A DNA stretch of 64,000 bases. Source: Fibrobacter sp. UWB13. GTDB taxonomy: Bacteria; Fibrobacterota; Fibrobacteria; Fibrobacterales; Fibrobacteraceae. The notes beneath the pieces were generated by a model. The model saw nothing but the letters and a program-made list of their open reading frames with translations. It had not been told where the DNA came from and did no database searches. Of this stretch, positions 1,467 to 53,710 are shown piece after piece; positions within the stretch are counted from its first letter, which is position 1; every line of letters starts with the position of its first letter. The DNA lies in contig NZ_FXAX01000001.1 in assembly GCF_900177805.1 (NCBI RefSeq), positions 1,302,001-1,366,000 of the forward strand. Direction: 5' to 3'. A program made the position numbers and the translations under genes.

Positions 1467-1480
1467 CGCGGCAAATTTAG
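1467..1480 (-). promoter_or_regulatory. Candidate -10 region of transketolase gene
   Basis: Minus-strand CTAAATTTGCCGCG: a TAAATT hexamer followed by TGCCGC. It matches the CTAnnTTTGSCGC pattern before gmk, priA, cysE and gph in this window. Predicted start near 1467 gives a leader of about 30 nt containing the ribosome-binding site. No clear -35 is seen. Confidence 0.4.
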
Positions 1481-1631
1481 TTTTTTCTTGCGAAACTCTC
1501 AAGGTATATTGTCAAATGAAAAGCCCAAAGCAATAAAAAGTTATATTTTCGCAACAACTTAAAATAATCCCTAAACGCCCCAAAAGAAGCGATTCTTGGA
1601 GCGCTTTTACGTGTTATCGAGAAGGAACCAA

Positions 1632-4193
1632 ATGAATATTAAAGACGCTATCTTGAGACTATTCAAGAACTTAGCTCACCCCACAGGCATCTTAGGCACC
1701 CTCATTGCCATAGCCATTCCCTTTCTTATTTACCTCGCCCCCAACATCAAGCACAGGGAAACCATCCGCCAACTGGATATAAACCTCCCACTCCCACTTT
1801 TTGGGATCCAGTTCATTCTTGGAATCGTTATTTTCTGTTTTTTGAGTAAAGATTTTAGAGAATGGCTCAAGGGAATCCTCCCCGCAAAGTCCGTGAGCAT
1901 CATGACTCTCGTATTCGCCGTCGCGGTTTCGATTTTTGCAGGCACCCAAATTGAAGCCCGGCACCGCGTCCAAAGTGACGAAAGCGTATTCATGTCGGTC
2001 GCTCAGAACATGTACTACAACCACGAATCCTACACCTGCAACCAGGGCGAATTCGACAACGGCACACTAAAATGCAAATCTACGTCCAACAGCTTTAAGA
2101 CCAAAGGACTTTCGTTCCTTTATTACCTCGGCATGCCATTGTTCGGCAGCGATCTGCGCTGGATATTCACAGCCGAATTCGTGATGCTCCCGCTTTCGTT
2201 CCTACTCATGTTCCTTGCGATTGTCGCCTGGACAAGGCAACCCCTCCTTGCGTTTTTCGCCTCGCTCCTCATGGCTCTCCAACCGACAGTGCTGTTCCAG
2301 TTCCGCGCCATGTCCGTTGAACCGCTCTATATTTTCCTCTCCGCACTTGCATTGCTCGTCTTTAAATGGGCTTACGACAGGAACACCGTTTGGCACTGGA
2401 CTCTCCTCGCCCTCATCCTAGCCTTCTTCGCCCAGACCCGCCAAGAAACCATCTTCTGCATCTTTGCATTCGTCCTCTTTGCACTTCCGAAGCTTCTCGA
2501 CAAGAAAGACGAAAAAGCGCCTGTCTTCTTCGTGACCCTTTCGCTTTTCTCCGTACCCGCCCTCCTCACAATTAGCTACTTCCAGGGATTCGGTTTCCAG
2601 GGTGGTGAATTTGAAGCCCACGGTCACTTCTTCGAAGACCTCGCCAAGAACTGGGAAGTCATGACGAAACCGCTCAAGAGCAATGGAGAACTCGAAAATC
2701 CGTTCCTCAGCTACTTTAATTATTTGTTCGCCATCGGTAGCATTTACCTCCTCTTCCGCGCCATCAACGATGCCAGAAAGAACAATTTCACATACCTCAA
2801 GATTCTCGCCTTTTTACTCCTCTACCACCTGCAAACATATGTGATTCTCGAAAACGTCTCTGGCGATTTCAGCATCGAAATCAACCAGCGCTATAGCCTC
2901 GTGATGTTACCGTCCATGGCATTTGTCGCAGCGCTCCCAGTCACGCACATGGTTCAGTATTTTACCACCCCGACAGGCTGCAAAAATCGGAACGGCAAAA
3001 ATGCAATTATCGGGATGGTGATTGTGGCACTCGCCTTTACAGGTTGGACATTCCACTACAAGCAAGACTTTAAAAACAATATCATGTACAACCGCAACCA
3101 CTTGACCATCGAAGAACATGAAATTCTCGGATGGCTCAAAGACTTACCGAAGGCAGACCGATTCTTTATTTACGGCCGTCCTTGGCACTTTGTGGGTTAC
3201 GGCATGTCTTCCATCCACTACGACAACGCTCGCAAAATGTCGAACAGCGAAATGAAGGACTTGATTGACAAGTACAAGGGAGAAGTCTATTACATCCGCG
3301 GACTGGACTGCTGGGACAGCCACACTTACCACAAGAAAGCCGTGGAACACCGCATCGCCACGACCTGCGATGTGTTTGAACGCGAGATGGATTTGACGGG
3401 CGTCAAGAACATCTTGATTACGAACAACTACTGGGTCCAAATAGCAAAGTTCAACGGTCGCAAGAACTACAATCCAGGGAAAATTATCGCCACGAACGAA
3501 TTGGAAGTCACTCCTGCCGATTCCGCTGCAGCACAGTCTGCATCACTCAAAATTCATTACGAGCTTAAAGAACAAAGTAAAGCCGCCGCGAATTGGAATA
3601 TAACGCTATTGGTAAATGACAAAATTATCGAGCAAGCCATTTACAAATTCGGTTCGTACGATAAGGAAATCGATGTAGCCAAATTACAGCCGGGCTATAA
3701 CCAGGTGCGTTTTTTGGTACAGGACTTGGTTACCAAAAGCAAGCTCGCCGATGTTTCCAAATTCTACTTTGAAAAAGCTAACGGTGCAATCGCCCTCACG
3801 AACTACCCCATTGAAAGCCACAAACAGGAATGGGGCAAATTGCATAAGAACGAAAGCATAGAAGGAAACAAGCTCAACGTCAATGGACAAAGCTTTATTA
3901 ATGGTCTTGGCACACATGCCTCTTCAACAACCGTTTTTGATATCGGACAAAAGTTCGCGAAACTCAACTTCGCGACAGGTCTTGATGATGAATCGCTTTG
4001 CAGCGAGGGCGCTGCTGTAGAAGTTTTCGGAGACGGCAAGTCGATTGCAAAAACACCTTTCTTTAGAAACGGCGAATTGCACAAAGTCGAGGCGAATGTC
4101 GCTGGTGTCCAAAAGCTCACCATCATGACCTTCCCAAAAGAGGGCATCAACTGCAGCCACGTAGACATCATCAACCCCGTACTTATACCTTAG
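1632..4193 (+). CDS. Multi-pass membrane glycosyltransferase (GT39/ArnT-like) with C-terminal NPCBM/NEW2 domain
   Basis: 853 residues from the ATG at 1632, which follows AGAAGGA at good spacing; an ATG 36 nt upstream has no such site. Residues about 1-430 are a string of ten or so hydrophobic helices, with a DES pair after the first external loop (QSDESVFMSVAQNM), as in lipid-linked-sugar transferases of the PMT/ArnT type. Residues 440-730 are soluble. The last 120 residues (GLGTHASS, then FATGLDDE) match NPCBM/NEW2 carbohydrate-binding domains. Likely transfers a sugar from a polyprenyl phosphate carrier outside the membrane. The GT2 gene just downstream is the type that makes such donors. 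Specific substrate unknown. Confidence 0.75.
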   Translation: MNIKDAILRLFKNLAHPTGILGTLIAIAIPFLIYLAPNIKHRETIRQLDINLPLPLFGIQFILGIVIFCFLSKDFREWLKGILPAKSVSIMTLVFAVAVSIFAGTQIEARHRVQSDESVFMSVAQNMYYNHESYTCNQGEFDNGTLKCKSTSNSFKTKGLSFLYYLGMPLFGSDLRWIFTAEFVMLPLSFLLMFLAIVAWTRQPLLAFFASLLMALQPTVLFQFRAMSVEPLYIFLSALALLVFKWAYDRNTVWHWTLLALILAFFAQTRQETIFCIFAFVLFALPKLLDKKDEKAPVFFVTLSLFSVPALLTISYFQGFGFQGGEFEAHGHFFEDLAKNWEVMTKPLKSNGELENPFLSYFNYLFAIGSIYLLFRAINDARKNNFTYLKILAFLLLYHLQTYVILENVSGDFSIEINQRYSLVMLPSMAFVAALPVTHMVQYFTTPTGCKNRNGKNAIIGMVIVALAFTGWTFHYKQDFKNNIMYNRNHLTIEEHEILGWLKDLPKADRFFIYGRPWHFVGYGMSSIHYDNARKMSNSEMKDLIDKYKGEVYYIRGLDCWDSHTYHKKAVEHRIATTCDVFEREMDLTGVKNILITNNYWVQIAKFNGRKNYNPGKIIATNELEVTPADSAAAQSASLKIHYELKEQSKAAANWNITLLVNDKIIEQAIYKFGSYDKEIDVAKLQPGYNQVRFLVQDLVTKSKLADVSKFYFEKANGAIALTNYPIESHKQEWGKLHKNESIEGNKLNVNGQSFINGLGTHASSTTVFDIGQKFAKLNFATGLDDESLCSEGAAVEVFGDGKSIAKTPFFRNGELHKVEANVAGVQKLTIMTFPKEGINCSHVDIINPVLIP

Positions 4194-32117: not shown

Positions 32118-33638
32118 TTATTCGCCTTTTTTCTTGGCACGCTTTTTAAGCAAGACAAGCGTACCGAAGGTCACTAAAAAGCCGAACAAGAGCGAAAGTA
32201 TTGCGCTACGGGTAAAGCCAGCAACAATGTAGGTGACAAATGAAATTGCCGCCACTATAAATACATACGGGATCTGCGTATTGACGTGATTCACGTGGTT
32301 GCATTCCGCACCAGCACTAGCCATAATCGTCGTATCCGAAATCGGAGAGCTATGGTCACCGCAAACGGCACCCGCCATGCAAGCCGAAATCGAGATGACC
32401 ATAAGGCTGTAATCCACGCCGCCAAACGCCGCGACGACAATCGGGATGAGGATGCCGAATGTTCCCCAGGAAGTTCCCGTTGCAAAAGCGAGGAACGCCG
32501 CAATCACAAAGATAATCGCCGGCATAAAGTTCATGAATCCAGCGGCACCGCCCTTCACAAGACCTGCTACAAATTCCTTCGCACCAAGCGCATCCGTTGT
32601 TCCCTTAAGCGTCCAAGCCAAAGCCAAAATCAAAATTGCAGGAACCATCGCCTTGAAGCCATCCGGCAAGCAAGCCATGCAGTGACCGAAACGCAAAACG
32701 CGACGAACCATGTAAAAACAAACCGTAAAAACAAATGCGCCAAACGAACCAATCGCAAGACCAACAGACGCATCGCTAGAAGCAAACGCATCGACAAAGC
32801 CCTTTGCCGCATCGCCTGATGCAAAATAACCACCCGTATAAATCATGCCGAGAACACAGAAAACAATCAAAGAAGCAATCGGCATCACAAGGTCCAAGAC
32901 TCTGCCTTTTGTCGATGTAAAATTCAAGTCTTCCAGATTTCCGCCGACAGCGTTTGTATGCATTTCATGCTTTTTCATCGGACCGATATTCACATTCCAA
33001 ACGACAACCAAGAACAACGTAAGAATCGTCAACAACGCATAAAAGTTAAACGGGATTGCCTTGATGAAAAGCGTGAGTCCATCCTCACCTTCCACGAATC
33101 CAGAAACCGCGGCAGCCCACGAGCTAATCGGTGCAATAATGCAAATCGGAGCCGCGGTAGAGTCAATCAGGTATGCGAGTTTTTCATGGCTCACCTTGAA
33201 GCGGTCTGTTACCGGGCGCATCACGCTACCCACCGTAAGGCAGTTGAAATAGTCGTCGATAAAAATCAAGATGCCAAAGCAAATCGTTGCAATCTGCGCA
33301 CCAATTTTTGACTTGATATGCGTCTTAGCCCAGTTGCCAAAAGCGGCAGAGCCTCCTGCCCTGTTCATGAGCGCAACCATAGCACCCAACATAACCAAGA
33401 ACACGAGAATGCCCACGTTATAAGGGTCAGCAACCTTTGCAATCAAGCCGTTCTTGAAAACAGCATCAAAGAATCCCGAGCCAGTCCCCTGGCAAAGAAG
33501 AAGTCCTCCGACAATGACGCCTAAAAAAAGTGACGAGTAAACTTCTTTACTCACAAGGGCTAAAATAATTGCGACAAGAGCCGGCACGAGAGCCAAGAAA
33601 GTACCATAAGCCATTATTGAATTTGTGGCCTGTTCCAT
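32118..33638 (-). CDS. NhaC-family Na+/H+ antiporter
   Basis: 506 residues with twelve or so transmembrane helices. Conserved NhaC-type segments include FIDDYFNCLTVGSVMRPV (ion-binding acidic pair), STAAPICIIAPISSWAAAVSG, ATGTSWGTFGILIPI and GDHSSPISDTTIMASAGA. Exchanges sodium for protons, or an organic substrate for ions, across the inner membrane. Its ATG is three bases after the stop of the 57-aa gene at 33642-33815, so the two are coupled. A sodium-based energy economy in rumen bacteria would fit, by inference. Confidence 0.88.
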   Translation of the reverse strand: MEQATNSIMAYGTFLALVPALVAIILALVSKEVYSSLFLGVIVGGLLLCQGTGSGFFDAVFKNGLIAKVADPYNVGILVFLVMLGAMVALMNRAGGSAAFGNWAKTHIKSKIGAQIATICFGILIFIDDYFNCLTVGSVMRPVTDRFKVSHEKLAYLIDSTAAPICIIAPISSWAAAVSGFVEGEDGLTLFIKAIPFNFYALLTILTLFLVVVWNVNIGPMKKHEMHTNAVGGNLEDLNFTSTKGRVLDLVMPIASLIVFCVLGMIYTGGYFASGDAAKGFVDAFASSDASVGLAIGSFGAFVFTVCFYMVRRVLRFGHCMACLPDGFKAMVPAILILALAWTLKGTTDALGAKEFVAGLVKGGAAGFMNFMPAIIFVIAAFLAFATGTSWGTFGILIPIVVAAFGGVDYSLMVISISACMAGAVCGDHSSPISDTTIMASAGAECNHVNHVNTQIPYVFIVAAISFVTYIVAGFTRSAILSLLFGFLVTFGTLVLLKKRAKKKGE

Positions 33639-33641
33639 AAA

Positions 33642-33815
33642 TTACTGTTCCTCTGGATTTAAGGATTTGAGCGGATTTTTAATCCCTGCATTTTCCAATT
33701 TTTGCAAGACTTCAATAGCGTAATCAATCGCATCCAAGGAATGCGAGCTCGCATACATTCTCAGGTCAGAAAGCGCATAGATAGCCCTCTGGTTGTTCAT
33801 CTCTTTTTCCGACAT
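33642..33815 (-). CDS. Small soluble protein, 57 aa, upstream of the antiporter
   Basis: ATG at 33815 with AAAGGA at good spacing. Product begins MSEKEMNNQRAIYALSDLRMYA... and ends KSLNPEEQ. Amphipathic and helical, no signal peptide or membrane helix. The three-base gap to the antiporter ATG, the ribosome-binding site and the clean codon pattern support a real gene missed by length cut-offs. Role unknown; possibly a regulator or subunit of the transporter. Confidence 0.6.
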   Translation of the reverse strand: MSEKEMNNQRAIYALSDLRMYASSHSLDAIDYAIEVLQKLENAGIKNPLKSLNPEEQ

Positions 33816-33954
33816 GATTTTTATCCTTTGATTGTTTATAAAACTACTCTAGGTAATCTAAATATTATTTAGCGAATTCAAACAACAATACCAACATGAT
33901 ACTCCATTTTTAGAAATCATTACTATATTTCAAGCATCTAATAAGGAGAAAATA

Positions 33955-35253
33955 ATGAAATCCATTAAAATTTTAGCTACAGTAGCAGCGTTTTGCCTCG
34001 TAAGTCAATCGTTCGCAACAGATTGGTACGTAAGTCCAAGCGGCAAGAACAAAAACGAAGGAAAATCTCCATCCGCCCCGCTCAAAAACATCTGGAAAGC
34101 CATTGAACTCGCTTCTAACGGAGATGTCATCCGCGTGGCAGCTGGCAATTACAACGGACAAATGAAGCAAGGGTGGATCAAGCTCGACAAGCCTGTGTCC
34201 ATCATCGGTGGCTACTCGGACGATTTTTCCAGTCGCGATGTTGTTAAAAACAAGACTTTATTCCAGCCGACGAACGAAATGAACGGCACCAAAGGCCAAG
34301 GAATTCTGCACCTCAATTACAAGGGAGCTAATTCGAAGGTCGTCATCGATGGATTCATTTTTGACCAAGGCGAAGCCAACAGTTACCACCCGGTTGAAGG
34401 CAAGCCAGAAGGCGTCGAAACCGGCATGTGGCTTGAACCTCCGTCCAAGGGAAATACCACCTTCCCCTCCCTTAACAACTACAGCCTCTACGGTGAAAAC
34501 TCTGAAGGCGACCTTACCATCCAGAACTGCGTCTTTGTAAATGCCGGTAATATTGCATTGAACTTAAACCATGTCGCAGGCAAGGTCAAAGTTTTGAACA
34601 ACATTTTTATCGCTAATAGAATCGTTGGCGCAAACGTACAAGCCAAGCAAAATAAAGTCGATGCCGTCGATTATGAATTTGCCTACAATACTGTGATGTT
34701 CACCTGGACTCGCACCAAACTGTTCGAAGACATGGGCTACGGCGTACGAGCCAACACAAACTGCATTACCCGAATCCATAACAACATTTTAGCCCTCAAT
34801 ATGATGGCTGGATTTGACAACACCAAGGGTGACCCAAAATCAAAGAAGGTCTATCTCGACAAGAACGCATTCATCCTGAACAAGAAGGGTGACGTCACTG
34901 TTACCGTGAGCCCGAACATCCTTTGGCTTAACGTCGCCGATGGTGCATTCGAAGACTTAGAAGACGCACCGAGCATTCAGAGCCTCAATGGAAACATTTC
35001 CATTAGCGATCCTAGCATTTTCAAGGGAAAAATCAACCAGGCTTACTTGGAAGGTTTCTTAAACGCAACTTACACAGAACAAGCTTCGTACAATGAAAAT
35101 TCCCCGGCAAACCTTTTCAGAGCCGCTATGGGTCTCAACAAACAGGGTTCCATCAAGTCTAAGGTATCTATGTTCATGAACAAGTACCCGATGGAAGAAG
35201 CTCTAGCCCTCTTTGGACTAATGGAAGGTTACGGCGCTCAAAAGCAAAAGTAA
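33955..35253 (+). CDS. Secreted right-handed beta-helix protein
   Basis: 432 residues with a signal peptide cleaved near SQSFA. The mature start TDWYVSPSGKNKNEGKSPSAPLKNIWKAIELASNGDVIRVAAGNY is the DUF1565-type opening of pectate-lyase-like beta-helices. Repeated coils follow (TIQNCVFVNAGNIALNL, VKVLNNIFIANRI, RIHNNILALN). Polysaccharide lyase or binding roles are common for this fold; no catalytic Asp/Arg set is certain. Strong AAGGAG site. A terminator follows, so it is monocistronic. Confidence 0.8.
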   Translation: MKSIKILATVAAFCLVSQSFATDWYVSPSGKNKNEGKSPSAPLKNIWKAIELASNGDVIRVAAGNYNGQMKQGWIKLDKPVSIIGGYSDDFSSRDVVKNKTLFQPTNEMNGTKGQGILHLNYKGANSKVVIDGFIFDQGEANSYHPVEGKPEGVETGMWLEPPSKGNTTFPSLNNYSLYGENSEGDLTIQNCVFVNAGNIALNLNHVAGKVKVLNNIFIANRIVGANVQAKQNKVDAVDYEFAYNTVMFTWTRTKLFEDMGYGVRANTNCITRIHNNILALNMMAGFDNTKGDPKSKKVYLDKNAFILNKKGDVTVTVSPNILWLNVADGAFEDLEDAPSIQSLNGNISISDPSIFKGKINQAYLEGFLNATYTEQASYNENSPANLFRAAMGLNKQGSIKSKVSMFMNKYPMEEALALFGLMEGYGAQKQK

Positions 35254-35274
35254 TCCAGAAAACTTGCAAAATAG

Positions 35275-35299
35275 GCACCTCAATCGAGGTGCTTTTTTT
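35275..35299 (+). terminator. Terminator after the beta-helix gene
   Basis: GCACCTC pairs with GAGGTGC around AATC, followed by seven T. Confidence 0.9.
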
Positions 35300-35316
35300 A
35301 TACCGGCTACAATGTT

Positions 35317-35326
35317 CTATATTATA

Positions 35327-35330
<4 letters not shown>
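35317..35330 (+). promoter_or_regulatory. thiC promoter -10 region
   Basis: CTATATT at 35317-35323; transcription from seven bases on would start at the 5' edge of the TPP riboswitch. The riboswitch boundary independently supports this -10 type in the genome. Confidence 0.55.
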
Positions 35331-37022
<1,692 letters not shown>

Positions 37023-37063
37023 ACTGAAACTCACCAAACCACTCGAGAGAATTGGAGGTGTCC

Positions 37064-38836
37064 ATGGAAAACGGAAAGAAAATTCTTAACGACTTCGTAA
37101 AGAGCAAATTCGCCGACCAGAATGAACTGAAGAAGGCTTTGTTCCAAGCAGGCGTTGCCGCGCTTGACGAAGGCTGGACGTTCATGGACGCCACATTCCA
37201 GCTCGGCGGCAAAGCTCGCGACGAGGGGCTCTCGGCAGACGATGTCGAGAAGATTTTGCGCAACGCCTTCTCTGAAGAAAAACGCCGTACCGAACGCGAA
37301 GCCGAACAAAAAGCGGCCGCACAAGCCGCAGCGCAACCCGCACAAGCTCCACAGGCCCAAGCAGCCCAAGCCCAGCCGGGCATGGCTCCAGGCTACGCCG
37401 CCATGGGCCCAACCGTCATCTCGCCCATTTCAGCAACGATGATGCAGCAGATGATTGCGCTCGGTCTCGACAACCAGTCTCTTGAGCTGTTGCAGAACTT
37501 CAAAATTGACCCCGAAGCGCTCTCGATTCCATGGCCCGCCCCTGACTGGCGCAAAGACTTTGCAAAGCTCTTAGCAGCAACGTTCAAACCCGACGAAACT
37601 GTTGAATTCAAAATTTCGAACACGCCTTCGGGTTCTCGCGAAATCGTCTCAAAGATTATCGCACAAGACGAAGCGCTCAAGAAAATCATGAAGCAGCTCG
37701 ACGGTCCGGACGGAGCGCTCCTCACGATTAACGCTGTGAAAGGCGGCGCCGATGCCACCGACGAAAGCTGGCATTACCGTTACGTTGTCGTAGACAACCC
37801 GAAGATGACGCTCGCCAAACAGCTCGCTTACTACAAGGCCTTGAACCTCCCCTGCGCCGCCCTTGTGAACACGGGCGCAAACTCCGTGCAGGCGTGGATC
37901 AAGATTGAAGCGCACGACCAGGAAGAATACAAGGAACGCGTAGACTTCCTTTTCCAGACGCTTGAATCGCAAGGCTTTAAAGTCGATGACGGAAACCGCA
38001 ACCCAAACCAGATGGTCCGCATGCCAGGCGTGCTCCGCAACGGCAAGCAGCAGTACCTCATCGCTTTGGAACAAGGTGCCAAGAACTTCACGGATTGGCG
38101 CGAATGGGCGGAATACTCTCTCGACGGAAAACCGCTCGTAGAACTTGCAAGCGATAGCGAAGAAGCTCCGAAAAAAGATCCTTGCATTATTGAAAACGTG
38201 CTCCGCGCTGGCGAATTTTTCTTGTTCACAGCCCCGCCGAAAAGCGGAAAATCGCTTGCGCTCATGGACATGGCGCTTTCCATATGCCACGGCGAAGACT
38301 GGCTTGGCAACACGACAAACGAAAACGATGTTCTGTACATCAACTTGGAACTCACCAAGTCCGTGTTCCTGAACCGTCTCTTTTTGCTTGGCGAAAAGCG
38401 CAATCTCCAGCCTAACACGCCCAAATTCGGTTTCTTAAACCTCCGCGGCACAGCGCTAACACCGCTCGAAATCGCACAGCTTATCGCGAAGCGCATTCAA
38501 GGCGCCAAGAAGCTCGAAAATCACGATTACAAGGTCGTCGTAATCGACCCGATTTCTGCCGTTTTGCACAACCCGAAGTCTTCAAGACTCAGTGGCTCCC
38601 CGCACCAGATTTTGATGCAGATGGTCGATTCGATTATCGCCCTCACGGGTTGCGCCGTCGTAACTTCCACGAATTTCAACGAATACCCCTACCTTGAATC
38701 CCGCGCCGATAGCGTCATTTCGCTCACGCCGGTTGAAGGTAGTCTGAACACGTACCAGATTAAAGGTTCGTTCCGCGAATTCCCGAAGACACTCGCCCGC
38801 GAATGCTCCTGGATTTATCCTAGATTTGTAGTTTAA
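37064..38836 (+). CDS. Primase-like plus RecA/RepA-like ATPase fusion
   Basis: 590 residues from ATG 37064, which follows GGAGGTG. An N-terminal helical domain (1-80) and an Ala/Gln/Pro linker (85-120) lead to a region (about 195-335) resembling the small archaeo-eukaryotic primase/RepB-primase domain: YVVVDNPK, CAALVNTGANSVQAWIKI, NPNQMVRMPG. Then a RecA-like ATPase with Walker A APPKSGKS (Lys396), INLEL (catalytic Glu position) and Walker B VVVIDPIS, as in hexameric RepA helicases. Such fusions are common in plasmids and phages, but no mobile-element genes are nearby. Role unknown. Followed 21 nt later by the TrmA-like gene. Confidence 0.6.
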   Translation: MENGKKILNDFVKSKFADQNELKKALFQAGVAALDEGWTFMDATFQLGGKARDEGLSADDVEKILRNAFSEEKRRTEREAEQKAAAQAAAQPAQAPQAQAAQAQPGMAPGYAAMGPTVISPISATMMQQMIALGLDNQSLELLQNFKIDPEALSIPWPAPDWRKDFAKLLAATFKPDETVEFKISNTPSGSREIVSKIIAQDEALKKIMKQLDGPDGALLTINAVKGGADATDESWHYRYVVVDNPKMTLAKQLAYYKALNLPCAALVNTGANSVQAWIKIEAHDQEEYKERVDFLFQTLESQGFKVDDGNRNPNQMVRMPGVLRNGKQQYLIALEQGAKNFTDWREWAEYSLDGKPLVELASDSEEAPKKDPCIIENVLRAGEFFLFTAPPKSGKSLALMDMALSICHGEDWLGNTTNENDVLYINLELTKSVFLNRLFLLGEKRNLQPNTPKFGFLNLRGTALTPLEIAQLIAKRIQGAKKLENHDYKVVVIDPISAVLHNPKSSRLSGSPHQILMQMVDSIIALTGCAVVTSTNFNEYPYLESRADSVISLTPVEGSLNTYQIKGSFREFPKTLARECSWIYPRFVV

Positions 38837-38857
38837 ACATTCAACACGATTATAAAG

Positions 38858-40252
38858 ATGTACAAACAGAACAATCGTTTTTCACGCCGCTCCGAAGGGA
38901 GCATTGCCCGTAACACCATGGGCAACAGAATCGGCAAACCCCTCGCCGGAGGCAAGTTCCACGCTTCCAGAAAATCCGATGTCCGCAAGGACGATGAACT
39001 CGACGAAAAGAAGCCTAAGGCAGAAAAGCCTGTTGTCCGCAAGATTCTTTCGTTCGACGACATCAAGACCCAAGTTGCCGCTTGGATGGAAAACGATCGT
39101 ATTCCGGGAAAGTTGCAGGCATGGTTTACCGCCGATGCAACACCGGAAAACTCCGACTGGAGAATCATCAAGGAATACCACGGCGCCCAGGAAAACCTGG
39201 TCATTGACGCACCGTCCCGCGACATGAAGCCGCTCGAGCTCGTGAAGCGCGTCCTGGAGCAGCTCCACAAAGAACATTTGCGCATCTTCAAAAAGGCTTT
39301 GCGCCAAATCTGGTTCCGCGCCACAGGCGACGGCCGCTTTGCGCTCCTCGTACAAGTGAATGTCAAAGGCAAGATTTCGGCCCATGGCTACAAGACGTTC
39401 GTCGACTTTATCGAACGCAGCTGTCCCGAAGTCATCAGCTGCCACCAGATCCAGTGCTTGCCGGATCGCCTCTTTGACCCCGCCGATGCTCAGGGCATGA
39501 AGGTCGAATCCAAGTGCTCTTTCGGCAGTAGCTTTATGCCGATTGCCTCGACTGGCTTTAGCATGCACGTCCTCGACTGGACGCCGCGCATCAAGGATGC
39601 ATGGCTCAACCTCCCCGTGCGCATCAAGGACGCCATCCACCCGAACCGCGAAGACCGTTTCTTCGAATTCTGCTCGGGCCCGTCTTACGTTTCTGCTTCG
39701 CTCGCCCCGTTCTTCAAACAGGTCGAAGCACTTGACTGCCGCGAATCCGCCATGCAGTCTTCTAAGCTGAATATTCGCAACCTCGCCACGCAGAACATGC
39801 GTTTCCACCGCAGCCATTTGGACGCCAATTTCGTCTCGAAATTCTTCTCGAAGAGCGATAACGCCGAAGGCCGCTGGACGTTCTACCTCAATCTGAGCGC
39901 AAACGACACGTTGACATCGGAAATGATCCTCACACTCGCCGGTTCCCGCCCCGAACGCATCCTTTTGCAGACCGGGAATCTCGAAACCGCCTCCAAGGCC
40001 ATCAAGGCTTTCCGTAACGAGGGCTACATGCTCCGCAAGAACATCCCGCTTTACATGGAACCGGGTCGCGGAACTTTCGAAATTCTCTTCTTGTTCGTGC
40101 CGGATAGAGTAGGCATTTTGGGCCAAAACCCCGCCCTTGCACACCGTTCACGCAATATCCAACGCCCGAAAGAACGCCCCATGCGTTCAAATTCGTCGGA
40201 TATTCCTCATTTTGTGCAAAAAACGCCCACTTTTAAGCAAAGAAAAGATTAA
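38858..40252 (+). CDS. TrmA/RlmD-like RNA methyltransferase homologue without catalytic cysteine
   Basis: 464 residues. A basic N-terminal tail (1-55) precedes a region like the central domain of m5U methyltransferases ([20 protein letters not shown]). A SAM-fold follows: [19 protein letters not shown] corresponds to motif I, with [16 protein letters not shown] after it. Where active enzymes have DPPRxG and then YVSCNP, this protein has [11 protein letters not shown] and LLQTGN (369-374), so the nucleophilic Cys is missing. The final [21 protein letters not shown] retains the C-terminal pattern including the Glu. Ends in a basic, disordered tail. Probably RNA-binding without methylation. Confidence 0.6.
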
Positions 40253-40292
40253 ATTATTTAACATAACACCAAAATTTTGCTTAGGGAATAGT

Positions 40293-41447
40293 ATGCGATT
40301 TTTAAAATGTGCTTCGATCTGTCTTGGTCTTTCAGCTCTGATTGCATCTGCCTATGTGGTCAAAAAAGGCGATACCCTCTGGGACTTGAGTGCCGAATTT
40401 TTAAACGATCCGTTCGCATGGCCGGACCTCTGGGAAAATAACAGGCACATTGAAGACCCGCACTGGATTTATCCGGGCGACTCCATTTATTTAGGCGATG
40501 GCATCGATGAAGGTTACCGCCTCCCGAAAACAAGACCGTGCGAAGCCGCAGTCGCCGATTCCAACTTGCCGAAGGGGATCAAATCCGTAGGCTGTGACGA
40601 AAAAGACGCCCGCAGTGGTGAATTCGAAAACATGCTCGGGAATCTCCGCGACAAGGACAAGAAGCACAAGAAGAAAAAACTTGCCGACACTTACCTTTAT
40701 AAAAAGCGTCCGGCACCGAAGATTTTCAACGGCTACTACCAGATTCTCGCCCCCGAAATCTATACGCTCGATTCCATCAAAAAGGACAAGAGATTCTTCT
40801 CTATCCGCTCTGGAGAAAAAAAGGAACCGATTATCCACATTCCGGAATCAGAAGTTGTCGTAGGCATCGGACGTAAAACGAACGCCGACCTCAAGAAAGG
40901 TGACCTCGTCGAAATTCTTGACGCACGCGCTATCGAAGTGCCCGCAAACAAGGGCAAGAGCTATGATAACTTTGCATTGGTAAGGCTCACGGGATACGCA
41001 AAGATTACCGCTATTGGCGATACTCTTTCGAGAGCAAAGATTGTCCAAAGCTTTAGGGAAATCAAGCTCGACCATGCCAAGGCACGTTTAAAACAGCCGC
41101 TTAACATTTTGAACGTAACCGGCTACACCGCAGTCCCCGAAGCCAAGATCGAAGAAATGGCAATGCTTCGCTATACCATGGATCCGATGCTCATCATTGG
41201 CGCTTATGCCTATGTCATGGTAGACAAAGGTACCAAACAGGGATACAATACCGGCGATGCCATTGCCATCTGGGAAGAAGACAAGTCCGATGCAGGTCTC
41301 CCACCGAGACTCCTTGGACGCGGAATCATCGCAAGAGCTACCGACAACGAATCTACAGTTCTTGTTCGTGAAGTCTATTCGAACAGCCGCCGCATTGAAG
41401 TTGGCCACAAGGTTTCTATAACCCATCAAGCAAACTTGGCCCAGTGA
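40293..41447 (+). CDS. Secreted LysM-domain protein
   Basis: 384 residues from ATG 40293 (AGGGA site); longer starts would overlap the previous gene and lack a signal peptide. Signal peptide [20 protein letters not shown], then a LysM domain [31 protein letters not shown]...[15 protein letters not shown] that binds GlcNAc polymers such as murein. A lysine-rich linker (about 125-140) and a 240-residue C-terminal domain follow. Similar LysM proteins carry large beta-rich domains of unknown role. First gene of a five-gene operon with overlapping ends that includes a two-component system. Confidence 0.85.
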
Positions 41448-41560
41448 CAAAGAACTTATTGATTATAATCGGCATAGCAATTTCACTTCTAGCCATCCTC
41501 ATGGCTGGGAGTGTTCTTATTATCCATTATCCTGAATTGTCGGCACATATTCCATTTTAA
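41444..41560 (+). CDS. Tiny single-helix membrane protein, 38 aa
   Basis: Starts at GTG overlapping the LysM stop (GTGA). Residues 4-27 form one hydrophobic helix ([18 protein letters not shown]); the short tail ends ELSAHIPF. The GTGA overlap and the position between an envelope protein and a sensor kinase suggest a real coupled gene, possibly a kinase modulator. No family recognised. Confidence 0.5.
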
Positions 41561-41574
41561 GGAAATGGACGCCA

Positions 41575-43623
41575 ATGCGGATATCTCGTAGCAACCTTCT
41601 TTTTCTTTCCTTTTTTGCAGGAGGAATTGTCTTACCGACGGCAATCCTCTCGTTCTTGAGTGTAAGGAACATCCAGAACGAAGCTTTTCTTGCACAAAAG
41701 AACTTTAGCGAAAGTGTAGCGACATTCCGCGAAGAATGTGAATCGACCATCAGCAAAGAACAAAGCAAGATATTCCAGGAAGTCAAGTCCGCTTCGCTGT
41801 ACCTTTACGAACAGCCGCATAGCCTACTCGACTTTGGAAATGCAACGCAGTTCAAGACAGTAAACGGCATCGAGGCGATGTTCCTGTACAACAACGGAAC
41901 GCTCATCTACCCCGATATTTCGTCCAAGCATTTTTCGAAGACTTCAGACTACTCGAACAGCATCGCCAGTCCATTTGAAAAAATGCTTTTCCGCGAAGAG
42001 GTCAATACCGCCATGCCGCAGCCGGCAAACCTCACGCGCTCCGCTCGTCAGCTGCGATTTTCATTCGATTCAATCGACGACCAGATCCAGAACATCCTGG
42101 GACTGGTTCGCATTGCTTACAAGACCAAAGACTACGACGAAGCGCTCCGTCTTTTGAATATCCTCGAGGAGCACCCACACCAGCAGGGCTACCTCCATTC
42201 AGACTTGACCCGCTCCGTCAACTTGCTGCACTTTGAAATTCTCGTCGCACAAAAGAAGCACAAAGAAGCCGAAGACTACACGATTGCAGTCTTAAACCAG
42301 TTTTTGCAGAGCGAGAACATCGAGAACCTCCCTTCGGCAAAGTTCTTCTTCGAAACCGCATTTACCCAGATTCTTTCTTTTGAAAACTTAAGCCAGGAAA
42401 AACGCGAAGCGTTCTGGAATTTGCGCGAGAACTTCAACCGCCAGCTCGGCTACATGGACATTTTCTTTAGCAACAAGGATATCGTCCAAGCACTCTTGAA
42501 CAAGGAAACGACTTCCAAGAGCGGCATCGACATCATGAGCGACAACAAGTCGACGTTCATCAAGATGAGCTACCCGATCCTCTCAGGCGACCAGGTGGTG
42601 CTAGCCAAGGTAAACATCGATGAATACCGCGAGCGCATGCGTTCCAAGCTCAAGACTTCGGCTCAAGGGTGGAAAAACATCCCTTACTCCATTACCGAAG
42701 GTTCTGACAAGACACTTATCCTCGGCCATGTTTCGGACAGTTCCGCCGTGATGGCTCAGATCATTTTAGACAAAGTCATTTCTTGGAATTTGACCTTATA
42801 CGAAAAAGGTCTCAGCGAAATCAAGAAAGAAACGCGCAAGCGCATGTTCCTCATGTATGGGCTTTTGTCGTTCTCGCTGATTACAGTGTTGCTCGGTTCC
42901 ATCGTGATGTTCCGATTCCTCACGCAAGAACACAAGCTCCTTGCCATGAAGGCGAACTTTCTTTCGAGCATTTCGCATGAACTCAAGACCCCGCTTACCT
43001 CCATCAAGATGTTTGCCGAAATGATGGCTCGCGGACGAGTCCAAAAAGTCGAGAAGGTGCAGGAATATTCGGGTCTTATCGGCAAGGAAGCGACACGTCT
43101 GGAAAACTTGATAGGCGCCATTTTGAACTACACACGCATGGAACACGGCAAAGGCGGTTTCCATTGGGAAAAGCTCGACTTTTCCGCCTGCGTGCAGAAA
43201 GTTTTCGATAACGTTGAAGACATTGGCGTCGAAAAAGGACTTTTATTCCATACAAAACTTGAGCCGAACCTATTTGTCATTGGCGATTATACAGCCCTTT
43301 ACAGCTTGGTTCAAAACTTGATTGAAAATGCGATCAAATACACTAACGCTCCGGGCGATATTACCATAACGGTCGCCCCCGACGAAGACAGAGTCGTTTT
43401 CTCCGTGGCGGATACCGGTATAGGCATCCCGTCTTCGGAACAAAAAAATATATTTAATGATTTTTATAGAGTCGGTGACGAAATGACCCGCAGCACAAAA
43501 GGCTCCGGACTTGGGCTAGCCATCGTGAAACGCGTGGCAGAAACACACAAGGCAACCATTTCTCTCACCAGTAAACCCGGCAAAGGTTCCACCTTCACCG
43601 TACGATTCAAAAAGGCAGAATGA
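41575..43623 (+). CDS. Membrane sensor histidine kinase with large periplasmic helical sensor
   Basis: 682 residues. TM1 about 9-28, periplasmic region about 30-415, TM2 about 422-445. The sensor contains a TPR-like helical part (about 165-290, YDEALRLLNILEEHP, KHKEAEDYTIAVLNQFL). The cytoplasmic HisKA box is FLSSISHELKTPLTSIKMF with phospho-acceptor His468; the HATPase has NLIENAIKYTN (N box), DTGIGIP (G1) and GSGLGLAIVKR (G2). No HAMP is obvious between TM2 and HisKA. Partner regulator overlaps its stop codon. The LysM and propeller genes imply sensing of envelope or murein status. Confidence 0.9.
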   Translation: MRISRSNLLFLSFFAGGIVLPTAILSFLSVRNIQNEAFLAQKNFSESVATFREECESTISKEQSKIFQEVKSASLYLYEQPHSLLDFGNATQFKTVNGIEAMFLYNNGTLIYPDISSKHFSKTSDYSNSIASPFEKMLFREEVNTAMPQPANLTRSARQLRFSFDSIDDQIQNILGLVRIAYKTKDYDEALRLLNILEEHPHQQGYLHSDLTRSVNLLHFEILVAQKKHKEAEDYTIAVLNQFLQSENIENLPSAKFFFETAFTQILSFENLSQEKREAFWNLRENFNRQLGYMDIFFSNKDIVQALLNKETTSKSGIDIMSDNKSTFIKMSYPILSGDQVVLAKVNIDEYRERMRSKLKTSAQGWKNIPYSITEGSDKTLILGHVSDSSAVMAQIILDKVISWNLTLYEKGLSEIKKETRKRMFLMYGLLSFSLITVLLGSIVMFRFLTQEHKLLAMKANFLSSISHELKTPLTSIKMFAEMMARGRVQKVEKVQEYSGLIGKEATRLENLIGAILNYTRMEHGKGGFHWEKLDFSACVQKVFDNVEDIGVEKGLLFHTKLEPNLFVIGDYTALYSLVQNLIENAIKYTNAPGDITITVAPDEDRVVFSVADTGIGIPSSEQKNIFNDFYRVGDEMTRSTKGSGLGLAIVKRVAETHKATISLTSKPGKGSTFTVRFKKAE

Positions 43624-44342
43624 TTATGCAACAACACAGAATTCTCATTGTTGAAGACGAAGAAATCATCCGGCTTGGGCTCCAGGACAACTTCGAGCTC
43701 GAAAACTACGAAGTCGAAACGGCATGCGACGGCGAAGAAGCTATCGCAAAAACGGACTCGTTCCAGCCACACTTGATTTTGCTGGATGTGATGCTCCCGA
43801 AGAAAAGCGGTTTTGAAGTCTGCCGCATCATCCGCAAGAAGCATCCGGAATGCATCATCATCATGCTCACGGCAAAGACCGAAGAAACGAGCAAAGTCGC
43901 AGGGCTCGACATGGGTGCCGACGACTACGTGACAAAACCGTTCTCGATTTTGGAACTTTTGGCACGCGTGAAGGCGTTCCTCCGCCGAATCGACTTGCAG
44001 ACGCAAGCAAGTCCGGCAAAGCAGCTTGCCTCCGTCGATGCCATTGACTTTGCAGACATCCATCTGGATTTCAAAAAATTCGTTGCCACAAAGGGCGGTG
44101 TTCCGCTGGAACTTTCCACAAGGGAATTCCAAATCCTCAAGTATTTCTGGCAGCGCCGTGGCGAAGTTGTATTACGCGAAGACTTGTTGCAAGATCTTTG
44201 GGGCTACACGCCGGATAACATGCCCTCCACACGCACGATTGACAACCATATCGTGAACTTGAGGCGCAAACTCGAAGACGACCAGGCAAATCCAAAAATT
44301 ATCCTTTCTATCCGTGGAGCAGGCTACAAGTTCGATGCGTAA
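43620..44342 (+). CDS. OmpR/PhoB-family response regulator
   Basis: 240 residues. ATG 43620 overlaps the kinase stop (ATGA); ATG 43626 is an alternative. Receiver domain: acidic pair EDEE at 12-15, phospho-acceptor Asp56 in LILLDVMLP, Thr in MLTAKTEE, Lys in VTKPFS. C-terminal winged helix includes STREFQILKYFWQRRGEVVLREDLLQDLWG and TRTIDNHIVNLRRKLEDD. Cognate partner of the upstream kinase; targets unknown. Confidence 0.95.
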   Translation: MIMQQHRILIVEDEEIIRLGLQDNFELENYEVETACDGEEAIAKTDSFQPHLILLDVMLPKKSGFEVCRIIRKKHPECIIIMLTAKTEETSKVAGLDMGADDYVTKPFSILELLARVKAFLRRIDLQTQASPAKQLASVDAIDFADIHLDFKKFVATKGGVPLELSTREFQILKYFWQRRGEVVLREDLLQDLWGYTPDNMPSTRTIDNHIVNLRRKLEDDQANPKIILSIRGAGYKFDA

Positions 44343-46863
44343 TCTTGGGCTAAAAGAAAACATATTCAAGGCGTGGATTCTTACAATCCTCGCCCTCTGT
44401 TCGCTGTTTTCTAGCCAAGCGCTCGCAAGCAAGATGGCTTCGCAACTCCAGGAAGCCATCTACCTCTTCGAGATGAAAGGGGATGTCGATGACGCCATAA
44501 GGCTGCTCGAAAAGATATCCCGACAGGGCGATGCCGATGACAAGGAATTTGCCTTTTTCTATCTCGGCAAAATTTACGATTTAGGGAGCAACAAGGCTCA
44601 GGCAAACCATTTTTATAGCCGAAGCCAGGCGTTTACCCAGAATACAAGCAAATCTTATTGGCTCGCCCAACGCGACGCAGCCACGAGTTTTGCCCCGGAA
44701 AGGCTCCTGCAAAAGACCATTCCGCTCCGCAGCCCCATCCGTAAATTCTTCGATGGAAAAAATGCCAACATCCTTTTCGAGAACGGTCATATCGCCAAAA
44801 TCGAAAGCGGTATGATTATCGAAATCGCCTCAAAGCTCAACGAAAACGAGCACCTGCTGCAAATCAATGCCGACGGGATGTGGTTCCAGAATCCGACTCG
44901 TGATTCGCTCTTTTACAAGCCACACAACGCTCCTAATCAAGAAGTTTCTTTCGAAGTCAAGAATATTTCCCAATTTACAGCCACAAGCAATAACGCCATC
45001 GCCATCACAGACAAGGGCTTTTCCATAATCGACCGCAAAGGTTCTATCGTCAAGGGAAACACCGATTACGCCTCTTGCCAGCTCATAAACGATCAATTTA
45101 TCAACGACAACTTTATTTTCAACTGCCCCGATAACGCACTCCACTTTGTTTCTGCAAGTACCGCCACAGAAACGTTTACGATTGCCCTATACGACATCAT
45201 CCAAAAAGTATTCGTCTTCAAAAACCTCATATACCTAGTTTCCGGGAACGAACTGTTCTGCTATTCGCTGCAAAACACAAAGAACCCGCTCTGGAAAGTT
45301 GCCATCGGAAATATCGAAAGCCTCCAGAATTTTGAAAACAACATAGTCACGCTAGAAGCTTCTGGAAAAATTACCCTGTACAACAGAACGACAGGCGCCA
45401 TTCTTTCAAGCGTCCGGGCTAACGCTTCAAACATATACACACTCGCACAAGGCACCCTCGGACTGTTTTCAAACGAAGGTTCCGTCATTACCGTCGATAC
45501 TTTGCTCCGCCCGCTATGGGGGTTCAATTTTGCCAAAGCCCCCATGACTCAGCCCGTCGCCAAAAGACGTTTTATATACGTTCCTTTCGACAACAAAAAA
45601 ATCTACGCCATCGACGCCCATTATTACGGTCAACGCCCACTATTCTCAAGCAAGCTTGCTTCACAGGCTGTACACTTAGCCAAGAGAAATCGTTGGGATA
45701 ACATTTCCCCCATTCTCGATTCCATCATCAAGAACGAGCCAGGCAATGCCGAAGCACATTTCCTCAAGGCGTTTAACCTCGAGCGGAAAAAGTCGTCCGA
45801 AAAAGACCGACAGAAAGCATGGGCAGAAGCCGTAAGGCTATCTACAGGCAGCCCACAAATTGCTCGAATCGTCTTAAAGTATTACCGAAAAGTCATCGGA
45901 GCCACATTTGCAAGCCAACTCAGCGTTTCCCCGAAAACGCTATACCCTCAATTACTGGGTTCTAAAAAGAACATCTACACGGTAGACCCCGCCACCGAGC
46001 AGCTAATCTGCATCAATGCCGAAACAGGCGAACAGCGCTGGAGCAAGTACATCGGTAAAATCGGTAACGCCCCCGTCATCCAATCCGACGAGAATTCCAT
46101 CGTGATATCAACGGGCTACCAGATGAACATTTACGACATGAACAAGGATTCGTTCAACAAGCCATTACAGCTGCCCGGCAAGGCTTTTAACTTTACCATA
46201 AGCGGGGACTACATTTACGCAGCCACTTGGAACGGATTCTTGCTCAAAATTTCCCGTAACACCAACAGCATTGTCTGGTCGCGCAAAGTTTATTCCATGC
46301 CATTCCATGTTGTCAAGCTCAACCGTACGTTACAACTTTGCAACCTTGATGGGGAACTGACTCGCCTCAATGACGATAATGGGCTTACCATAGATAATAC
46401 TACAAACAAAATCCAGGTCAATATCACCGCCATGGAAGGTATCGATTCGACATTGGTTCTCGTTTCCAGCACAAACAAGCTATTCCTGCAGAATACAAAG
46501 CGCAAGGAATTCAGCCCCATACAAGTGCTCATGGAATATCCGATTATCTCGATGCAGGTGCTACGCGACCAAAACGAGGACAAAATCATCATCTCGCTTG
46601 CAGACCAGTCGATTCTCCTTTATTCGAACATCGGGACTCCTCTTTGGAAATTCCAAGGGAAAAAATCCATTTTCTCCAAGCCTTTTATCTACGATGGAAA
46701 AGCGTGGATTGACCAGGGTAGCGAACTTATCGCCATATCTATCAAAACTGGCAAGATCGTAAAGACATTCAACACGCCAGGCGGCGCGGGTACCCCCTTC
46801 ATTTTGAACCACGCCTTGTTTACAGCCTCCCCCAAGCACGTTCTTTACGCGTTCCCCCTCTAA
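44335..46863 (+). CDS. BamB-like PQQ/beta-propeller protein with TPR start, secreted
   Basis: 842 residues from ATG 44335, which overlaps the regulator's last codons; this start gives a good signal peptide ending SSQALA. Residues 30-100 form TPR/SEL1-like helices (YLFEMKGDVDDAIRLLEKISRQGDADDKEFAFFYLGKIYDLG). The remainder is repeated beta-propeller blades with PQQ-type motifs (LWKVAIGNIESLQ, INAETGEQRWSKYIG, YIYAATWNGFLLKI) interrupted by another TPR segment at about 435-515. A periplasmic scaffold akin to BamB is likely. Last gene of the LysM/two-component operon. Confidence 0.75.
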   Translation: MRNLGLKENIFKAWILTILALCSLFSSQALASKMASQLQEAIYLFEMKGDVDDAIRLLEKISRQGDADDKEFAFFYLGKIYDLGSNKAQANHFYSRSQAFTQNTSKSYWLAQRDAATSFAPERLLQKTIPLRSPIRKFFDGKNANILFENGHIAKIESGMIIEIASKLNENEHLLQINADGMWFQNPTRDSLFYKPHNAPNQEVSFEVKNISQFTATSNNAIAITDKGFSIIDRKGSIVKGNTDYASCQLINDQFINDNFIFNCPDNALHFVSASTATETFTIALYDIIQKVFVFKNLIYLVSGNELFCYSLQNTKNPLWKVAIGNIESLQNFENNIVTLEASGKITLYNRTTGAILSSVRANASNIYTLAQGTLGLFSNEGSVITVDTLLRPLWGFNFAKAPMTQPVAKRRFIYVPFDNKKIYAIDAHYYGQRPLFSSKLASQAVHLAKRNRWDNISPILDSIIKNEPGNAEAHFLKAFNLERKKSSEKDRQKAWAEAVRLSTGSPQIARIVLKYYRKVIGATFASQLSVSPKTLYPQLLGSKKNIYTVDPATEQLICINAETGEQRWSKYIGKIGNAPVIQSDENSIVISTGYQMNIYDMNKDSFNKPLQLPGKAFNFTISGDYIYAATWNGFLLKISRNTNSIVWSRKVYSMPFHVVKLNRTLQLCNLDGELTRLNDDNGLTIDNTTNKIQVNITAMEGIDSTLVLVSSTNKLFLQNTKRKEFSPIQVLMEYPIISMQVLRDQNEDKIIISLADQSILLYSNIGTPLWKFQGKKSIFSKPFIYDGKAWIDQGSELIAISIKTGKIVKTFNTPGGAGTPFILNHALFTASPKHVLYAFPL

Positions 46864-51826: not shown

Positions 51827-53710
51827 ATGCTGATTGATCAAGAACATGCAGAGTATATGAGAACCAAAGCTCACCCGAGGCAGCTGGGAATTCCCCTGAG
51901 CCGTTGGGGGCGCAACCTTATCGCCTGCTGTCCGTTCCACTCACCGGAAGAAACATCGCTGTTTTTCTACGATGCGCTAGGTTATTGGCGCTATCGCTGT
52001 CTCCAATGCGGTGCCGAAGGCGACTTGGTCGATTTTTTGATGAAGAGCCGCTTTAACGGCGTAGACGAACAGACCGCCCGTTCCGAAGCTTTTGAATTCC
52101 TCGGCGCACTCGACAAGGACATTGCGAACAGCCAGGATAGCGAACACCCGTGGGTCAAGGAAGTCGGTGGCGAAAAGTCCAAAGTGCTCGAATGCTTTGT
52201 GCGTTACTGCCACTGGGCAGCCTGCAAGAGTCCCTCCTCGGCAAAGTTCCTCGAAGCCCGCGGCTGGAGCATTGGCCAAGCCCAACTTTACGGTCTCGGT
52301 TACTACAGCGGCGACCCGGAACCATTCATCAGCTACTGCATGCTCTCCGGCATCGAACGCCACCAGATCAGTTTTTACCTCGACAACCTCGAAGCGTACC
52401 ACGAACCGCGAATTACCATTCCGGCCCGCAATTCCAAGGGATTTATCCATTCCGTTTATGGTAGACTCATCGACGATAACGAAAAGAGCCATACCTACAT
52501 TACGTATGCTTCCGGCCCGACCGTTATTCCGTTCAACATCCAGGCAGATAGCGAAAACCCCATTATCGTACAGGGATTCTTTGACGCGCTCACCGCTGAC
52601 CTCGCCGGCATCCCGGGCGTTGTCTCCACGATGTTCCAAGAACTGAACATCAACCACCTGTACAAACTCAAGGCTTGCGGTGCCGAAGCGTTTACCGTCA
52701 TCTTGCGCCGTGAAGAAGACCGTCGCAATCAGGAACTCAAAATTCAGAAGTACTTGAAGCTCGCCGAACAGATGCACATGAGCCTCAAGTCCATCGTGCT
52801 CCCGAAAGACGAATCTGTCGATACATTTGTCCGCAAGAACGGCGCCGATCAGCTCATCGACCTTATTGCCAATACCGAAGTCGATACCATTCATTCGCAC
52901 CGCCGCTCCATGCTATTGCAGGACATCAAGGAGAACTTCGATACCGCAATGGCATGCCCGCCAGACCAGAGCGTAGGCTACAAGCTCAGCACATTCCCGA
53001 AGCTCACCAAGGAAATCGACGGCGTTCAGTCGGGATGTTTCTTTGTATCGTCTCAGCCATTCGGCCTCAAGACATTCTTGCTTTCGAGCCTTACGCTCGA
53101 CCTTATCGAGAGCAACCCGAACCTCAAGGTCATTTACGTCGCTTACGAAACGCCACGTCGTCAAATCTTTGACCGTTTCGTTTCCATGCTCATCGGCGAA
53201 TCAATTTTGAACGTCCGCAAACAGAATACGAATAACGAAATCAATAAAAAGATTTTGGATGCAACGCGCGAGCTCATGGGTTACGTGCGCAACAACCGTC
53301 TCGAAATCTGGGACGATATGCCGTCGCTTGACTTTAACGACTTGCTCAAGACGTTTAGCCAGGAACTCAAGGACCACCCGGACTTGATTCTCGTGATTGA
53401 CGGTATCGACCACATGAAAATTACCGACCGTCCGGAACTCCCGGACATCCACGAGAAGCGTTCGTCCATCATGCTCGACTTGTACAAGGCGCTCGATATC
53501 CCGATATTCCTCGGTGGCGAGCTCATCGATTCTAACATGGGACTCCTCGGCCCGCGTGCGTACCTCCGCGATTCCGACGCCATTTACTGGCTTACCGAAA
53601 AAGATGGCATCCTAAATCTCTCGGTGGATTCCAAGCGCATGGGCACAAGCCGCGTGTACGAAGACAAGATTTTGATTGACCCACAATCTAGCCGCATGAA
53701 AGAAGCTTAA
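51827..53710 (+). CDS. DnaG-DnaB-like primase-helicase fusion with degenerate active sites
   Basis: 627 residues; AGGAGG precedes the ATG. CHC2 zinc finger: Cys35, His38, Cys58, Cys61 (CCPFH then YRCLQCGAEGDLVDFLM). Residues 95-245 follow the DnaG N-terminal catalytic domain. The Toprim region has VQGFFDAL (Gln249 where DnaG has Glu) and RREEDRR instead of the DxD motif; LPKDESVDTFVRKNG matches the end of Toprim. Residues 375-610 are DnaB/RecA-like: Walker A reads SQPFGLKT (Leu414 before Lys415), VAYETP keeps the Glu, Walker B is LILVIDGID. The layout is that of T7 gp4 or Twinkle. Overlaps the next gene. Confidence 0.7.
   Translation: MLIDQEHAEYMRTKAHPRQLGIPLSRWGRNLIACCPFHSPEETSLFFYDALGYWRYRCLQCGAEGDLVDFLMKSRFNGVDEQTARSEAFEFLGALDKDIANSQDSEHPWVKEVGGEKSKVLECFVRYCHWAACKSPSSAKFLEARGWSIGQAQLYGLGYYSGDPEPFISYCMLSGIERHQISFYLDNLEAYHEPRITIPARNSKGFIHSVYGRLIDDNEKSHTYITYASGPTVIPFNIQADSENPIIVQGFFDALTADLAGIPGVVSTMFQELNINHLYKLKACGAEAFTVILRREEDRRNQELKIQKYLKLAEQMHMSLKSIVLPKDESVDTFVRKNGADQLIDLIANTEVDTIHSHRRSMLLQDIKENFDTAMACPPDQSVGYKLSTFPKLTKEIDGVQSGCFFVSSQPFGLKTFLLSSLTLDLIESNPNLKVIYVAYETPRRQIFDRFVSMLIGESILNVRKQNTNNEINKKILDATRELMGYVRNNRLEIWDDMPSLDFNDLLKTFSQELKDHPDLILVIDGIDHMKITDRPELPDIHEKRSSIMLDLYKALDIPIFLGGELIDSNMGLLGPRAYLRDSDAIYWLTEKDGILNLSVDSKRMGTSRVYEDKILIDPQSSRMKEA

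Follow-up and report, generated by a model that had tools for sequence, protein, structure and literature searches.

The window analysed here, i.e., the whole stretch of 64,000 nucleotides from a Fibrobacter genome, contains two adjacent genes on its forward strand, hereafter PRIM and MT. PRIM (37064..38836, + strand) codes for a 590-aa putative domesticated phage primase-helicase with an AEP-like domain and a RepA/RecA-type ATPase, as indicated by matches to PHROG 2597, AAA_25 and RSF1010 RepA. MT (38858..40252, + strand) starts 21 nt further and codes for a 464-aa protein which, based on its model, its match to RlmCD and its position in a tree, is a putative pseudo-methyltransferase of the TrmA/RlmD fold. 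An earlier reading of the same DNA, hereafter the original prediction, had given the coordinates, the length of the first protein, the gap and the motifs APPKSGKS and LLQTGN exactly as we found them. MT is followed by a gene coding for a LysM protein (40293..41447, + strand), which also adjoins MT in the order-level relative G026. A terminator-like hairpin with a 13-bp stem (41484..41513, + strand) lies 3' of the LysM gene and is consistent with an unproven single PRIM-MT-LysM transcription unit; terminator-like sites in the region do not outnumber the chance expectation. No Rfam element was found at 33500-46000. Fibrobacter is a rumen bacterium, and loci near-identical to the window were found in F. 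succinogenes MAGs.

PRIM and MT were each detected in 80/80 genomes of the genus. All loci inspected in eight Fibrobacteraceae genera (g1, g9, g11-g15, g17) have the two genes adjacent and co-directional, usually separated by 17-32 nt, and followed by LysM, histidine kinase and response regulator genes in conserved order wherever the available sequence extends that far; several loci entered the set twice, and locus counts are not species counts. The location behind thiC given in the original prediction holds for the window and close species and is not found in more distant ones. Both genes belong to a ~16 kb collinear block of ordinary genes, among them those for LysM, VanY, solute-binding and CDP-alcohol transferase proteins, the histidine kinase and response regulator genes, and ruvC. 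Collinearity is complete in G158 (g12), a genome assembled as a single contig, for the 13 genes from PRIM through the glycosyltransferase gene 3' of PH2, a second degenerate primase-helicase gene described below. Because the whole block is collinear, the adjacency of PRIM and MT alone provides little evidence of a partnership. Within the same region, an 849-aa TPR/PQQ-type beta-propeller protein encoded 3' of the response regulator gene (44314-46863, + strand) was observed to diverge fast (33% identity in G158) despite its conserved neighbours.

Conservation of the pair as neighbours in other genomes, raised in the original prediction, thus extends to every locus inspected in the eight genera but not to g8, g10 and G026. 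PRIM was found in 0/12 g10 genomes and in 0/1 g8 genome, and MT is present there in other contexts in all genomes but G092, which gave no clear match to it. In G026, a genome of the family f2, MT lies beside the LysM, histidine kinase and response regulator genes, and PRIM is located on a separate contig. G025 (92% complete) encodes PRIM and gave a negative result in the search for MT.

Residues 192-533 of PRIM match PHROG 2597 ('DNA primase') with an E-value of 6.6e-75, and the primase-helicases of Streptococcus Javan phages, Bacillus phage BCJA1c and Faecalibacterium phage Lugh align with residues ~160-540 at 30-36% identity. AAA_25 (7e-20) is the sole family reported by Pfam and NCBIfam. 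The primase homology announced as a 'RepB-primase-like' domain is consequently real, while the primase site itself is degenerate. The model of PRIM is of moderate quality (pLDDT 75); its predicted ATPase half resembles RSF1010 RepA (Z 20.9 over 217 residues), and the structure searches bear on this half, no claim on the fold of the N-terminal AEP half resting on them. The PRIM profile found no match at E 0.1 among PDB sequences; a scan of viral contigs for PRIM relatives returned one distant match (L188), and a scan of plasmids three partial ones. One Fibrobacter genome also carries, on a small contig and next to a helicase gene, a primase-helicase of the phage type whose AEP and helicase motifs are intact (L137; G106 contig 64, 5046 bp; 1476-3713). 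This copy matches PHROG 2597 over nearly its full length (1032 bits) and is either a mobile-element copy or a contaminant.

AEP proteins are defined by motif I hhhDhD/E, which provides two acids, motif II sxH and motif III hD/E (PMC5862659). To these we compared 69 distinct PRIM sequences (67 from Fibrobacteraceae and 2 from f2) alongside five phage or mobile-element copies. In motif I (37793..37801, + strand), the E-x-D of phages is D244-N-P in the window, the second metal-binding acid being lost; this acid is absent from 69/69 PRIM copies, which carry Pro, Asn, Lys or Arg instead, and is kept in 5/5 phage or mobile-element copies. In motif II, the SGxKSxH of phages reads TGANSVQ and the His is replaced by Gln276 (37889..37891, + strand), a Gln found in 69/69 copies. 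An acid occupies the probable motif III position, an assignment of our own, in 62/69 copies, and one Arg of the motif that follows is kept by PRIM in the family. In the ATPase half, the P-loop is intact as originally predicted: Walker A (APPKSGKS; 38231..38254, + strand) retains GKS in 69/69 copies, and Walker B (VVID495; 38537..38548, + strand) retains its Asp in 69/69. Downstream of Walker B, the helicase sensor His (HHHSKG-like) is replaced and the RASGSGVFARDP loop deleted in all 69 copies. Since replacing the motif II His by Gln does not by itself abolish activity in some AEP families, e.g., the PolpTN2-like (PMC5862659), the losses of the motif I acid and of the helicase segment are the stronger evidence. 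Judged by these residues, primer synthesis and unwinding appear unlikely for PRIM, while the intact Walker motifs make ATP binding plausible.

PRIM thus exhibits the domain order of the PHROG 2597 phage primase-helicases but clearly diverges from them: it lacks the second acid of motif I, the motif II His, the HHHSKG sensor, the RASGSGVFARDP loop and the C-terminal region, and its gene is located on the chromosome without phage genes in its surroundings. With the hexameric helicase RepA of RSF1010, its ATPase half shares the RecA-type fold and Walker A/B, whereas in PRIM this half is joined to an AEP-like domain and the segment containing the sensor His and the loop is lost.

No Pfam or NCBIfam family scored above cut-off with MT, the NCBIfam RumA family being matched below threshold (E 0.025). 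Its model (pLDDT 81, core >90) agrees with the TrmA/RlmD type originally predicted: it aligns with RlmCD over 341 residues (Z 30.7, rmsd 3.0) and matches RumA (Z 27.6), TrmA (Z 26.4) and archaeal m5U enzymes, while other methyltransferases score far lower (Z 16.7). MT motifs, for which HMMER and hhalign concur on the register, were counted in 82 distinct sequences (71 B-type, 10 from g8/g10 and one from f2). The position of the catalytic Cys is occupied by Gly373 in the window (LLQTGN; 39974..39976, + strand); Cys occurs in 0/82 orthologues, which mostly carry Ser or Gly, and also Ala or other residues. FxQxN aligns with W241-T-P-R-I (39578..39592, + strand), its Gln being absent from 82/82 orthologues and replaced by Pro in 81, i.e., all family copies. 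The Asp of DPPR is Asn345 (FYLNLS; 39890..39892, + strand); it is kept in 6/82 orthologues and the Arg in 0/82, leaving none with an intact DPPR. SAM motif I, DLYCGxGxF, reads EFCSGPSYV (39665..39691, + strand), having lost the second Gly that persists in 13/71 B copies and in the f2 copy. The acid at the SAM-ribose position is kept in every orthologue. In RlmCD, D381 and E443 are critical for activity and E443 is the proposed general base (PMC5614603); in the MT of the window the counterpart of the Asp is lost and that of the Glu is kept (Glu408; 40079..40081, + strand), as it usually is among MT orthologues.

MT consequently shares its whole-chain fold (Z 26-31) and, usually, the C-terminal Glu with the RlmCD, RlmD (RumA) and TrmA m5U methyltransferases, but lacks their catalytic Cys, intact DPPR and FxQxN Gln, has an eroded SAM motif and bears basic tails. 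The N-terminal tail (38858..39040, + strand), disordered in the model, contains 17 K/R and 8 D/E in 61 aa, and the C-terminal one (40130..40249, + strand) 10 K/R and 3 D/E in 40 aa. The pseudo-methyltransferase proposed on the loss of the Cys and the PPR motif therefore holds across the orthologues. Because the Cys is gone, m5U formation by the family mechanism is not possible for MT, and other chemistry is unlikely. The ribose-position acid, the usual Glu and the second Gly of some copies suggest that residual SAM binding is possible.

Other RumA-type genes are present in 41/41 genomes searched with PF05958. The genome of the window encodes a canonical RlmD (C1:1539315) and a TrmA/RlmD-like paralogue A (G000:C5:132481-133080) with an intact DPPRKGT and FCGTDE replacing SCNP; paralogue A occurs in several Fibrobacteraceae genera. 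MT is thus an extra copy beside RlmD and paralogue A. In a maximum likelihood tree of 55 sequences, the MT proteins (B) group in a single clade, which is joined by the f2 protein (support 95/90), whose long branch makes its placement less sure. The sister set of this clade comprises paralogue A, class-level f3 proteins and f10 (94/97), and the two sets together stand apart from RlmD (100/100). The Cys and the FxQxN Gln are kept by A, f3, f10 and RlmD. Direct orthology of the Cys-bearing class-level homologues with MT was considered and ruled out, since the tree groups them with paralogue A rather than B. Consequently, the catalytic Cys, whose retention in homologues of the second gene would have spoken against the original prediction, is found in no MT orthologue and only in the sister paralogues A, f3 and f10.

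The placement of f3 with A does not account for the C-terminal PDxxGLL segment and the tails common to f3 and B. The f3 tails are long and basic, with mean net charges of +11 and +13. Several f3 proteins (L044-L050, L056, L057) are RlmD-like, keep intact catalytic motifs and bear a very long basic tail at each end, their open frames reaching ~730 aa. Next to their genes, some genomes have gcvT/ftsK-like and phosphoglycerate mutase-like genes. As f3 proteins with intact motifs carry longer tails than MT, basic tails are not the mark of a pseudo-enzyme, unlike originally proposed.

Strong purifying selection acts on PRIM and MT, whose median omega among eight or nine F. succinogenes-like copies amounts to 0.066 and 0.088, respectively. 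The corresponding values are 0.062 for LysM, 0.025 for thiC and, for the two-component genes, 0.041 and 0.021. Given these low values both genes are presumably functional, and the loss of catalysis in both proteins is well supported by the residue losses. A new, non-catalytic job is probable since the catalytic residues are lost yet selection persists. We therefore favour, with a probability of about 60%, that PRIM and MT are domesticated, catalytically retired nucleic-acid enzymes of the Fibrobacterales chromosome, reused as nucleic-acid-binding or ATP-switch factors. Homology, residue loss, predicted fold, selection and synteny are read from sequences; from them we infer the ATP-switch role, RNA binding and any interaction. 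PRIM is a relative of a phage AEP primase-RepA-type helicase stripped of its primase and helicase residues; because the ATP-binding core is kept while the catalytic segments are lost, it most likely would act as a switch or scaffold that binds nucleic acids in a nucleotide-dependent manner. MT derives from the TrmA/RlmD-like m5U methyltransferase family and, having kept the fold and basic tails without the catalytic residues, most likely would bind structured RNA without modifying it, as a chaperone or adaptor; its modelled fold and charge make such binding plausible. TrmA exhibits a tRNA chaperone activity independent of catalysis, and TruB likewise (PMC11301382). These enzymes provide a precedent for the mechanism, an RNA-modifying fold working without modification, and not for membership; they are still active, whereas the active site of MT is lost. 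PRIM and MT are inherited side by side within a stable gene block, and their direct physical partnership is a possible hypothesis.

Alternatively, the true partner of PRIM could be PH2 (51827..53710, + strand), located 13 kb downstream, the two forming a non-catalytic or ATP-switched DNA-maintenance factor to which MT is an unrelated neighbour. PH2 has a DnaG-type CHC2 zinc finger, a broken TOPRIM-like region from which the DxD acids are missing and a broken DnaB-like region whose P-loop lacks GK[ST]. It was found in 25/25 genus genomes of a first sample and in 13/13 PRIM-bearing genomes tested from other genera, while six g8/g10 genomes gave DnaG-level matches only. Both proteins are thus primase-helicase-like, are encoded at opposite ends of one ~16 kb block, occur together in g1, g9, g11-g15 and g17 and are both missing from g8/g10, although these keep LysM, g44314, g49680 and MT. 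Within the family PRIM therefore follows PH2 better than MT, and the co-absence is suggestive. However, it may stem from a single co-loss event, order-level relatives carry PRIM without PH2, and the P-loop of PH2 is lost, so that we consider this alternative rather improbable.

The dedicated two-protein nucleic-acid surveillance or replication-initiation module that the original prediction envisaged now looks doubtful. The adjacency of the co-directional genes in all loci inspected from eight genera, usually with a short gap, and the purifying selection on both would fit such a complex, but the adjacency is part of the collinear block, MT occurs without PRIM in g8/g10, the genes are unlinked in G026, and the primase and helicase residues are gone. 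Just as doubtful is a broader scheme in which PRIM, PH2 and MT, a set of enzymes retired from phage-type replication and RNA modification, would jointly make up a new ATP-switched nucleic-acid handling apparatus.

MT could still be active with changed chemistry, e.g., as an N-methyltransferase in which an N-L/P-P motif would substitute for DPPR. This is suggested by the position of motif IV, where Asp has changed to Asn and Pro often follows (NLP, NPP), and by the ribose-binding acid and C-terminal Glu. Yet the residues after the Asn do not fit the NPPY/F-type motif that N-methyltransferases carry, erosion is evident in SAM motif I (SGSSF, CGAA) and the motif differs from genus to genus, making such an activity very unlikely. 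Decay of both genes, as leftovers of a phage gene and of a duplicated methyltransferase gene, would agree with the catalytic residues lost in both, but neutral decay is refuted by omega values of 0.03-0.13, as low as for the neighbouring LysM gene, and by their presence throughout the genus, and hardly deserves consideration.

As kinds of protein, both pseudo-methyltransferases and domesticated phage replication proteins are already known. A limited search of the open-access literature found nothing on the PRIM-MT pair and no description of the PRIM or MT family, or of a clade keeping a degenerate primase-helicase together with a degenerate m5U methyltransferase. Should PRIM and MT bind nucleic acid without catalysis, they would represent a clean case for enzyme-to-scaffold conversion, for which paralogue A and the phage-type copy provide motif-keeping relatives for comparison.
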